The translations under genes and the position numbers were made by a program. A stretch of DNA of 64,000 nucleotides from Brachyspira intermedia PWS/A (GTDB lineage: Bacteria; Spirochaetota; Brachyspiria; Brachyspirales; Brachyspiraceae). The notes below the pieces were generated by a model. That model was not told the DNA's origin, ran no database searches, and worked only from the letters and a program-made list of their open reading frames with translations. The DNA lies in assembly GCF_000223215.1 (NCBI RefSeq), contig NC_017243.1, positions 620,001-684,000 on the forward strand, in the 5' to 3' direction. This document shows positions 36,383 to 47,318 of the stretch, in pieces. Every line of letters starts with the position of its first letter. Position 1 is the stretch's first letter.

Positions 36383-37129
36383 TTAATTATTTAAATTAAC
36401 AGGTATGGAAACAAAAAAAGTTGTTATTTTAGACGGACTATTAACACTTTTTATAACCATACTTCCGCCATGTGCTTCTACTATTCTCTTAGAAATAGCA
36501 AGTCCTATACCAACCCCATGACTCTTTGTTGTAAAGAATGGAGTAAATACTTTTTCAGCTAATTCAGGTTCTATATATGAATTAGTATTTTCTACTATGA
36601 TGTCTATTATTGATTCTCTGTATGCATTATCATCAAATATGACGCTTTGAAGTACATTATTTGCATATACAGCAAAGTGTCCTATAACATTTTTTATTTC
36701 ATCAATTATAGAGTTATAGAATTCTATTTTATTTTCTCTATTTCTAAAAAGAACAACTCCAATAGGATTTGCATAGAAAAATATCGGAAGTACAAACATA
36801 GATGAATAATTTGAAAAAACTTCCATATTTGTATGATTGATATTTTCACCTACATAAACTTTTTGATCATATAATACATCTTTACAATGATTGGCAGATA
36901 TTGGAAAATCAACTTTACATACATAGTATCTGTCTATTCCATATACACCTCTAAGTATAAGATAATCCCCTTTAGGAAAATACACTTCTCCGCAATCAAA
37001 ACCGTAGTACTGACAAGTTTTTTCCAAGAATAAATCTACAACTCTATCTATTTCATTGGTGTTTTCAGCAAAAAGCAACCCCATAGATAAATCTGAAAAA
37101 AAACTGTCTATAGATTTTCTCTCTTCCAT
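36383..37129 (-). CDS. GAF-domain protein with a truncated histidine-kinase ATPase domain
   Basis: A 248-residue protein. Residues about 15-160 resemble a GAF sensor domain. The C-terminal ~85 residues match the last part of a HATPase_c domain: ELAEKVFTPFFTTKSHGVGI (F and G2 boxes) and ISKRIVEAHGGSMVIKS. There is no HisKA dimer domain, no phosphoacceptor His and no N box. The G1 box is degraded: IIVENTNSYIEP where D.G.GI is expected. It therefore cannot be a normal kinase. It may be a regulator or a decayed gene, although the frame is intact. It seems to lead an operon with the next two genes. Confidence 0.8.
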   Translation of the reverse strand: MEERKSIDSFFSDLSMGLLFAENTNEIDRVVDLFLEKTCQYYGFDCGEVYFPKGDYLILRGVYGIDRYYVCKVDFPISANHCKDVLYDQKVYVGENINHTNMEVFSNYSSMFVLPIFFYANPIGVVLFRNRENKIEFYNSIIDEIKNVIGHFAVYANNVLQSVIFDDNAYRESIIDIIVENTNSYIEPELAEKVFTPFFTTKSHGVGIGLAISKRIVEAHGGSMVIKSVNSPSKITTFFVSIPVNLNN

Positions 37130-38832: not shown

Positions 38833-39540
38833 ATGAGAGTATTAGTTTATGATTCATCTTTACAAATAAGGGACAGTTTTATCAGTATTCTTATTACGGC
38901 AGGATATGAAGTTGTGGCTGTGAAAGATAAAAATAATATTTTAAGTATGTTCGGTAAACTTCCTTTTTCTATTGCTATTATAGAGGTTGAGGAAAATGAT
39001 ACGGAAATGGAGAGTATACTTGAAAAAATTTATTTAGATGATAGGTATCATGGAGTTCATGTTATAGTTCATGTTGCTGATCCTACTAGAGAGTTTTTTA
39101 CTAAGATGATGAGGATTGGAGTTTCAGGATTTTTATTAAAGCCATTCAATGAAAAAGATTTTTTGAATAGATTCAATGTTTTAATAGATAAGGCTGGGGT
39201 AAAACCTAAAAAACTAAAACATATAGTAATAAACAATTTAGATAATTTTAAATTGGTATTTAGACATGATGGTGTAAGGCAAATTCTTCATGGTATGATA
39301 ATAGAAATGTCGCCTGTAGGCTTAAAATTTATTATGCCTCCTGAAGAAGCTAGTTTGGAAGTTGGACATGTTATAAAAAATGCTTCTATGTCCATAAGTT
39401 CTTATAAAATAAGTTTTTCTATTAATATATTAGAAAAAATAGGAAATGAATATATAGGAGAGTTCGCTGATTTGTCTGTATTTAATTCAAAATTGATATG
39501 TAAATTTATATATGATAAATATATAGAAAAATTAAAATAA
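38833..39540 (+). CDS. Pseudo-receiver protein with C-terminal PilZ-like region
   Basis: A 235-residue protein. Residues 1-120 have the response-regulator fold (MRVLVYDSS...FLLKPFNEKDF) with conserved Asp7 and Lys103. The phosphoacceptor position, at the end of strand 3 (FSIAIIEVEEND), is Glu51 rather than Asp, and the Thr/Ser of strand 4 is Ala82. The rest (about 135-235) has a beta-barrel pattern, 'GMIIEMSPVGLKF', like PilZ domains, but lacks a clear RxxxR motif. The protein is probably locked or phosphorylation-independent. It lies 35 bases before thiD on the same strand. Confidence 0.8.
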   Translation: MRVLVYDSSLQIRDSFISILITAGYEVVAVKDKNNILSMFGKLPFSIAIIEVEENDTEMESILEKIYLDDRYHGVHVIVHVADPTREFFTKMMRIGVSGFLLKPFNEKDFLNRFNVLIDKAGVKPKKLKHIVINNLDNFKLVFRHDGVRQILHGMIIEMSPVGLKFIMPPEEASLEVGHVIKNASMSISSYKISFSINILEKIGNEYIGEFADLSVFNSKLICKFIYDKYIEKLK

Positions 39541-45786: not shown

Positions 45787-46025
45787 TTTAATATTCCTTA
45801 AAATAATAATTATTAATGTCCTATATTGTACATTTATAGTATAAAAAAACAATATTTTTTGCCTATTAATTTTCAATTTTGTTAACTAATTGTTTATTTG
45901 TAAGGTTATATTAATAAAGAATCAGAATATTTAAAGAAAATAATCATTATTTTACGATAATATTATAATAAGATATTGATTTTATATCATTAATTTACTA
46001 TATTTATAAATTGGAAGACTTTAAT

Positions 46026-47318
46026 ATGCAAACAATAACAACTAAACAAAATATATTAATAATAGACGATGAAGAAGACATACTGACTACCTGTCAGAAT
46101 ATTTTAGAAGATGAAGGCTATGGAGTAGATATAGCTAAGAATTATAAAGAAGCAGAAGATATACTTAATAGTAAGAATGTAAATTTAGTATTTTTAGATG
46201 TATGGCTACCTGATGTAGACGGACTTGACATACTTGCCAATATAAAAGAAAAATACCCTAATACTATTGTTATAATGATGAGTGGCCATGCTGGTGTTGA
46301 AACAGCAGTAAGAGCTACTAAGATGGGAGCTTATGACTTTTTAGAAAAGCCAATAAGTATATCAAAACTTCTTTCAAGCTGCGAAGATGTATTCAAAGAA
46401 TCTACAAATAAAACAGAATCTCTAGATAATGAAGAAAATGAGTCAAATCATCATCATAATAATGTAGGATATAAGGTTAAACAGAGAACTATAGCTAAAA
46501 GTATCGTTGTAAGCGGTTTTGCTCTAATGGAAGGAAGAAAAACAGCTTTAACATTAGTTCCAGCAGAAGTTAATACAGGTATAGTTTTTATTGATATTAA
46601 TACAAATACTCATATAAAATTATCCCATAATAATATACTTTCTAAAGATAAATCAGGAGCAGTTAATTCTACAGCATTAATCTCCGGAAACAGATATATA
46701 AAGACTACAGAACATTTTTTAGCAGCACTTCATATGATGGGTATTACTAATTTAATAGTAAAATGTGATGGTGAAGTACCCAATGTAGACGGTTCTGCTT
46801 TAGTATTCTGCGATGCTTTGAAAGAGGCTGGTTTTGTAGAGCAAGATGATTATATAGAGCCTATAGTTATAGATCAGACTTTGACTTATGGTACTGTTAA
46901 TGATAATGAAACTTATATAATACTTTCACCTTATGATGGTCTTGAAGTTAGTCTTCGTATAGATTTTGCAGGCAGTATAGGCGTACAGGAATATACATAT
47001 AAATTTGATAATTTTGATCAGTTTACAGAAGAAGTTGGAAGAGCTAGATCATTTAACACTATAGATAATATTGATTATGCACAAAAAATGGGAATGGCTG
47101 GAAGCGGTATGATAGGAAGTCATATACTCCTTTGTGACGGAAAAGTAATAAATACTAAACTTCATTTTGATAATGAGTTTGTAAGACATAAAATTTTGGA
47201 CATAATTGGGGATTTATATATATTAGGAAGACCTATAAGAGGCAAAGTTGTAGCTAATAAGTCTTCACATTCTTTCAATCATTCCGTTGTACATGATCTT
47301 GCAAATAGATATTTATGA
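46026..47318 (+). CDS. lpxC: Response-regulator receiver fused to LpxC deacetylase
   Basis: A 430-residue two-domain protein. Residues 8-120 are a complete receiver of the NtrC/NtrX type: Asp14, Asp15, phosphoacceptor Asp58 (LVFLDVWLPDVDG), Ser86 (MMSGH) and Lys108 (FLEKPIS). An acidic/His-rich linker follows (about 121-150, EENESNHHHNN). Residues ~152-430 are LpxC, the zinc deacetylase that commits UDP-acyl-GlcNAc to lipid A: TTEHFLAALHMMG, GEVPNVDGSALVF, FVRHKILDIIGDLYILG (zinc His and Asp) and KSSHSFNH (catalytic His). Every residue needed for catalysis is present. ATG at 46026 has GGAAG 8 bases before it; a TTG at 46011 is less likely. A sigma factor follows after 57 bases. Confidence 0.93.
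   Translation: MQTITTKQNILIIDDEEDILTTCQNILEDEGYGVDIAKNYKEAEDILNSKNVNLVFLDVWLPDVDGLDILANIKEKYPNTIVIMMSGHAGVETAVRATKMGAYDFLEKPISISKLLSSCEDVFKESTNKTESLDNEENESNHHHNNVGYKVKQRTIAKSIVVSGFALMEGRKTALTLVPAEVNTGIVFIDINTNTHIKLSHNNILSKDKSGAVNSTALISGNRYIKTTEHFLAALHMMGITNLIVKCDGEVPNVDGSALVFCDALKEAGFVEQDDYIEPIVIDQTLTYGTVNDNETYIILSPYDGLEVSLRIDFAGSIGVQEYTYKFDNFDQFTEEVGRARSFNTIDNIDYAQKMGMAGSGMIGSHILLCDGKVINTKLHFDNEFVRHKILDIIGDLYILGRPIRGKVVANKSSHSFNHSVVHDLANRYL

Follow-up and report, generated by a model that had tools for sequence, protein, structure and literature searches.

A receiver domain of NtrX type fused to the only LpxC of Brachyspira intermedia suggests direct phosphorylation control of lipid A synthesis

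Introduction

LpxC is the gatekeeper of lipopolysaccharide (LPS) synthesis and an antibiotic target, and its control outside the enterobacteria is largely open (PMC12444477). The LpxC regulators covered by a 2025 review of lipid A regulation are LapB/YejM/FtsH, MurA, Lon, and, at the level of transcription, NtrYX/ChvGI; a fused receiver is absent from that review, in which the words "receiver" and "fusion" have 0 occurrences (PMC12444477). When R. sphaeroides lacks ntrYX, lpxC mRNA is 8.8-fold up and LPS is about doubled (PMC7240162), and NtrYX affects lpxC transcription in C. crescentus (reviewed in PMC12444477). In D. vulgaris, lpxC is the one DNA target of the response regulator DVU2934, and the S. 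fumaroxidans operon of the DVU2934 orthologue has lpxC immediately upstream of it (PMC3333781).

Here we describe a gene in which a response-regulator receiver (REC) is fused to LpxC. Response regulators that control an attached enzyme are familiar from CheB, REC-GGDEF, REC-HD-GYP, and PorX, but the outputs of these are signaling or modifying enzymes, whereas that of the fusion is the committed step of an essential biosynthesis. With NtrY-NtrX the fusion has in common an NtrX-type receiver, an NtrY-type kinase, and, in several groups, the location of lpxC beside ntrYX. It differs in that its output is the LpxC enzyme and that the Brachyspira protein has neither an AAA+ nor a DNA-binding domain; fusions that retain the AAA+ domain have lost the sigma-54 loop. 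DVU2934 and its orthologues are likewise response regulators dedicated to lpxC, but DVU2934 acts on the lpxC promoter, whereas the fusion would bypass DNA. Compared with other LpxCs, the fusion shares fold and active site but has an N-terminal receiver, is missing the C-terminal tail, and belongs to a separate clade. LpxC is also part of a larger fused protein in the LpxC-FabZ of Bacteroidetes, Chlorobi, and Verrucomicrobia (PMC3087551), but there the partner is a C-terminal metabolic enzyme and not an N-terminal signaling input. We found no publication describing receiver-LpxC in the open-access literature, although domain databases may well list the architecture.

The fusion gene and its protein

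The window (the whole stretch of 64,000 nucleotides analyzed, from Brachyspira intermedia PWS/A) contains the fusion gene as a single open reading frame (ORF), which begins with ATG at 46026, has no internal stop, and ends with the stop codon at 47318 (Table 1). The position of the ATG matches the start in most Brachyspira orthologues. A sequence-only reading of this DNA had claimed an in-frame protein of 430 residues consisting of a receiver and LpxC, and had named a stop codon between the two as a test; the frame has none there, and both domains exceeded their Pfam cut-offs. Response_reg (PF00072) matched residues 10-117 with E = 3.4e-30, above the curated cut-off, and LpxC (PF03331) matched residues 153-426 with E = 3.5e-69 and 233.7 bits versus a cut-off of 27. 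The NCBIfam equivalog model for lpxC, TIGR00325, gave 199.5 bits versus a cut-off of 187.25. In the AlphaFold2 model (mean pLDDT, 90.3; pTM, 0.76) there are two well-formed domains, joined by a linker that is unstructured at residues 135-146 (pLDDT under 50). Foldseek aligned the C-terminal part to LpxC crystal structures with target TM-scores of about 0.8-0.9.

Table 1. Positions of the fusion gene, its parts, and associated genes (window coordinates unless another contig is given)
Feature	Position	Strand	Evidence
REC-LpxC fusion gene, 430 aa	46026..47318	+	Pfam, TIGR00325, whole-genome LpxC search; kept in all sampled Brachyspirales
Shine-Dalgarno-like GGAAG, 8 bases 5' of ATG	46013..46017	+	Read from sequence
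Receiver domain, NtrX type, residues 10-117	46053..46376	+	Pfam PF00072; receiver tree; dN/dS 0.02-0.11
Asp58 codon, predicted phospho-acceptor	46197..46199	+	Asp in 89/89 distinct fusions
Linker, residues 121-150, partly disordered, hardly conserved	46386..46475	+	AlphaFold2 pLDDT; dN/dS 0.09-0.75
LpxC domain, residues 153-426	46482..47303	+	PF03331, TIGR00325, PDB LpxC matches, invariant residues
Sigma-70 family factor gene, 284 aa	47376..48230	+	Pfam regions 1.2, 2, 3, 4
NtrY-like kinase gene, 596 aa, outside window	G000:C2:491681-493468		Transmembrane, HAMP, HisKA, HATPase_c

Distribution of the fusion

We searched 296 Spirochaetota genomes. The fusion was full length in 26 of 26 Brachyspira genomes, one copy being cut by a contig end, so that separate receiver and LpxC genes, which had been named beforehand as a further test, do not occur in the other members of the genus. 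It was also found in three other members of the Brachyspira family, in two genomes from another family in the order, and in genomes of three further spirochaete families. At one locus from these last families (L042) the junction contains NN in the assembly; because of this, we set aside the alternative of two adjacent genes and score the locus as probably fused.

Among named genomes, a scan turned up the fusion in a Deltaproteobacteria metagenome-assembled genome (MAG; L057) and in a Thermoanaerobaculales MAG (L058). Two Nitrospinota proteins (L059 and L060) have a sigma-54 AAA+ domain between the receiver and LpxC. This REC-AAA+-LpxC form was present in at least 56 of 77 genomes of the latter phylum (counted as rows), and one or the other form is near-universal in Nitrospinota. 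Matches to the fusion at E = 1e-75 or better were obtained in 66 of the 297 genomes of the phylum of L057, and every one of the 20 examples fetched was a fusion, some having AAA+ and some not; the corresponding figure for the phylum of L058 was 9 of 297. Outside Spirochaetota and Nitrospinota the occurrence is scattered, in at least two phyla. Many of these nonspirochaete examples come from MAGs. What had been presented as a feature of one organism instead characterizes one LpxC clade, which extends over at least four phyla. Because the same fusion is present in every Brachyspira genome sampled and in related families, and is the sole LpxC of the B. intermedia genome, it is neither a sequencing artifact nor a chance event; an assembly error is also excluded by the identical architecture in independent assemblies across the genus and other phyla.

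Three very long ORFs (L252, L256, and L262) were considered as kinase-REC-LpxC triple fusions and rejected, as Pfam shows no kinase in them. The extra N-terminal residues of L252 and L256 overlap the upstream ntrY in a different frame, and the extra part of L262 has no family match in Pfam.

The LpxC domain

Brachyspira makes lipooligosaccharide, and the B. hyodysenteriae annotation includes lpxA, lpxB, lpxC, lpxD, and kdtA; at least in the passages of that report on these genes, the receiver goes unmentioned (PMC2650404). A whole-genome search found no second LpxC, and the fusion, judged by its sequence, is the cell's LpxC, with a predicted role as deacetylase of UDP-3-O-acyl-GlcNAc. The zinc ligands (His230, His388, and Asp392) and the catalytic Glu229 and His415 are invariant in 89 distinct fusions. 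The claim that every catalytic residue is intact stood for these five and for Lys389, likewise invariant in the fusions, but needed one correction, in that Ser342 aligns with the position at which other LpxCs have the Thr of an R-T-F motif. The change is conservative, and among the fused proteins this position is Ser in 31 and Thr in 57. In E. coli the Thr of the motif is Thr191.

The fused LpxCs end early. Beyond the [GS]HxxN motif, 76 fusions have 11-18 residues, whereas single LpxCs, of which the roughly three quarters with the exact motif were counted, nearly all have 23-57; LpxC-FabZ fusions have more residues than this after the motif. The exceptions were two Bacillota sequences and the NN-interrupted fusion; the short-tailed single LpxCs include L119 and L136. 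In E. coli the degron recognized by FtsH sits in the C-terminal tail of LpxC (PMC12444477). The mention of FtsH control in the earlier reading was therefore apt, since the fused LpxCs measured are without the tail that bears this degron in E. coli. However, because the fused LpxCs form one clade, tail loss counts as one evolutionary event and is only suggestive.

The receiver domain

The receiver is complete, as claimed, with Asp14, Asp15, Asp58, Ser86, and Lys108 all present. Asp15, Asp58, Lys108, and Ser/Thr at position 86 are kept in all 89 distinct fusions, and the acidic pair is invariant or nearly so across these proteins, which span phyla. Within Brachyspira, dN/dS of the receiver (0.02-0.11) was close to that of LpxC (0.025-0.08), the linker having 0.09-0.75; these values place the receiver under strong purifying selection. 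Because the residues needed for phosphorylation are kept and dN/dS is low, the receiver is not a relic, and a vestigial domain is excluded.

Several results place the receiver in the NtrX lineage. It has NtrX-type motifs (LD-W-P, MSGHA, and EKP), and the best NCBIfam model over the receiver region is NtrX. In a tree of 69 receivers, which included the tested other receivers of the same genome and which, having few columns, is of modest resolution, the fused and NtrX receivers grouped together versus the others (support, 89/93). The full NtrX model (NF051870) gave the window protein 114 bits versus a cut-off of 600, and Pfam and NCBIfam searches of this protein found neither a sigma-54 AAA+ domain nor a Fis-type helix-turn-helix (HTH) domain; for these reasons we do not class it as an NtrX. 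The receiver tree placed the Brachyspirales receivers among spirochaete NtrX proteins (88/90). In this it disagrees with the LpxC tree, so that the history of the Brachyspirales fusions may include a receiver replacement, that is, a possible exchange of receivers.

Origin of the fusion

In a tree of 72 LpxC domains, all 41 fused ones lay on one side of a single branch (100/100), within which REC-LpxC and REC-AAA+-LpxC were mixed, requiring 4 changes. The simplest reading of these sequences is one fusion event followed by loss (or gain) of the AAA+ domain, with a clade that came to span phyla through age, transfer, or both. The fusion architecture is old.

The proteins with three domains resemble an NtrX in which LpxC replaces the DNA-binding end. 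The AAA+ domain of NtrX-like regulators carries a GAFTGA loop that contacts sigma-54. In 20 of 20 REC-AAA+-LpxC proteins this loop was absent and Walker B was altered, leaving a relic AAA+ domain; in the seven unfused NtrX proteins compared, both were intact or nearly so, one having GSFTGA. An NtrX incapable of transcription activation and bearing LpxC is the intermediate to be expected on the way from a protein that regulates lpxC to an LpxC that is itself regulated, and the best reading of the sequences is that an NtrX-type regulator swapped its transcriptional output for LpxC itself. We lean toward extending this to the whole LpxC clade, in at least four phyla, which would have exchanged transcriptional control by ntrYX for direct, phosphorylation-set control of LpxC: NtrX would have lost its DNA-binding output and taken on its target enzyme, first with a degenerate AAA+ spacer (as in Nitrospinota and others) and then without it (as in Brachyspira and others). 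The change of a transcriptional response regulator into one that has the enzyme of its own target gene as output, with surviving intermediates, is a step rarely documented.

A candidate kinase

Histidine kinases are few in this genome. There are a PhoR-like kinase close to an OmpR-like regulator, an AtoS/NtrB-like kinase adjoining an NtrC-type regulator, chemotaxis kinases, a protein combining NUDIX and kinase domains, and an NtrY-like kinase. The gene for the last lies 174 kb from the fusion gene and has no response regulator beside it in this genome. Its product has the motif WRE..AHEIKNP around the phosphorylated His and grouped with NtrY kinases versus other histidine kinases (100/98), and an orthologue was present in 31 of 31 Brachyspirales genomes sampled.

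Genome context, which had been proposed as the way to find the cognate kinase, points to an NtrY-type kinase that has lost its ntrX partner in just those lineages that carry the fusion. In 41 of 43 loci from Spirochaetota without the fusion, NtrY was followed by a receiver protein of NtrX type of ~450-480 aa; in spirochaetes with the fusion, none of the 32 loci with enough flank had a response regulator next to NtrY. The association has P = 3.6e-19, but few lineages (Brachyspirales and two others) contribute to it, so this value should not be read as if each genome were an independent event. It seems that the fusion replaced ntrX in these spirochaetes. Elsewhere the genes are neighbors: ntrY is directly upstream of rec(-aaa)-lpxC in nine loci of the phylum of L057 (L243, L245, L247, L250, L252, L256, L258, L259, and L261), lpxC, ntrY, and ntrX are adjacent in L064 and L104, and ntrY-ntrX is close downstream of lpxC in L067, L072, L089, L095, and L125. 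Because of its family, the loss of ntrX, the location of ntrY upstream of the fusion in other bacteria, and the neighboring lpxC, ntrY, and ntrX genes, the lone NtrY-like kinase is the likely kinase of the fusion. In Brachyspira, where the two genes are not adjacent, the pairing rests on family, ntrX absence, and analogy, and the genome has competing unpaired parts: another lone histidine kinase (L140, the NUDIX protein) and unpaired single-domain receivers. In other bacteria NtrYX has a known connection with the cell envelope that is so far without explanation, and the fusion sets this connection within a wider association of NtrYX with lpxC.

The gene for this other lone kinase, L140:1480-3030 (-) (G000:C2 near 328953), encodes 516 aa with a NUDIX-like hydrolase domain (by eye) and histidine-kinase domains; the 3.4-kb flank fetched contains no response regulator. 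Just downstream of the NtrY-like kinase gene and convergent with it is a receiver-like gene (L163:3384-3653, -). It occurs in Brachyspira and the sister genus and encodes about 115-138 aa with N/P in place of the phospho-acceptor Asp ("FNPNLVW"); full-length copies are at L172:3286-3654, L182, L187, and L188, and the frame in the window genome is cut to 89 aa. Its product may serve the kinase as a decoy or adaptor. In one genome of the same genus (G083; L180), the NtrY-like gene appears disrupted, with two separate matches, one of them containing stops; the fusion is kept there.

Proposed mechanism and alternatives

We consider it likely that the fusion is a lipid A enzyme under signal control, all within one chain. 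A membrane histidine kinase/phosphatase of NtrY type would phosphorylate Asp58 of the NtrX-type receiver, to which a flexible linker covalently ties the only LpxC of the cell. The receiver would respond with a change, most probably in self-association, as receivers of the NtrX/NtrC type do; LpxC would thereby be altered in activity, in oligomeric state, or in its placement at the membrane, and lipid A synthesis would be set posttranslationally. The HEIKN motif of the NtrY family makes both kinase and phosphatase activity possible (PMC13001219), which suggests that the Brachyspira enzyme is also a phosphatase. The phosphotransfer from NtrY, its effect on LpxC function, and the mode of that effect are what we infer from the sequences, and with them the idea that phosphorylation controls lipid A synthesis directly, whether by activating or by restraining LpxC. 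Because the linker is long, disordered, and unconserved, tight allostery through it is disfavored, and dimerization or tethering is likelier than transmission through the linker. The fusion suggests that outer-membrane synthesis answers to a membrane sensor kinase directly and not through gene expression, and it makes LpxC control directly testable with one soluble protein, one predicted phosphosite, and one predicted kinase.

The receiver might instead be a phospho-controlled tag for degradation or localization, LpxC being destroyed or held at the membrane with its catalysis unaltered. RssB and CpdR, which work with ClpXP, are precedents for phospho-controlled degradation. A disordered linker suits a tethered tag better than it does rigid allostery, and the tail missing from the fusions is the one with the FtsH degron in E. 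coli (PMC12444477). However, many unfused LpxCs outside the Enterobacteriaceae are also without this degron (PMC12444477), and short-tailed single LpxCs exist, so tail loss alone is no proof of rerouted proteolysis; we regard such a tag as unlikely, if still to be reckoned with.

Much less probable is a receiver that acts independently of phosphorylation as a dimerization or scaffold module, or that is a phosphate sink attached to LpxC. Receivers can dimerize unphosphorylated, but the near or complete invariance of Asp58, Lys108, and the acidic pair across phyla argues against this explanation, as does the retention of the NtrY-type kinase in all Brachyspirales sampled despite the loss of ntrX. 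Degenerate receivers do arise in the genus, an example being the one without Asp beside the kinase, whereas that of the fusion has kept its residues.

We give slightly less credence again to a reversed flow of information, in which occupancy of LpxC by substrate or product changes the receiver and so reports the level of lipid A precursor to the kinase. An NtrY of the HEIKN type, both kinase and phosphatase, could be titrated by a metabolite-dependent receiver (PMC13001219), and NtrY is kept without ntrX; but with ntrX gone and no other kinase output evident in Brachyspira, such a report would have no reader. That the fusion is a misassembled or decaying, functionless gene is virtually out of the question, given that independent assemblies of every species sampled in the genus, and genomes of other phyla, contain it and that both domains are under purifying selection.

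Neighboring genes

A sigma-70 gene starts 57 bases downstream of the fusion stop, as the sequence-only reading had noted. This neighbor is conserved in Brachyspira and the sister genus and was seen at none of the more remote fusions in the order; a part for the sigma factor in the mechanism is unsupported beyond those two genera, and we treat it as a member of the neighborhood. Two other window genes encode signaling-like proteins. One (38833-39540, +) has 235 aa, with a degenerate receiver (a weak PF00072 match) whose phospho-acceptor region, "AIIEVEEND," has Glu and no Asp, and a C-terminal part that by eye resembles PilZ. The other (36383-37129, -) has 248 aa, with HATPase_c after a GAF-like region (by eye) and no evident histidine-phosphotransfer domain. 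In the L057 lineage (L057:4331-5386, -, and L057:5435-5875, +) the fusion gene comes after an Hsp20-like small heat-shock gene and is near an RpoH-like sigma gene, and the related loci L219-L226 keep the sigma factor.
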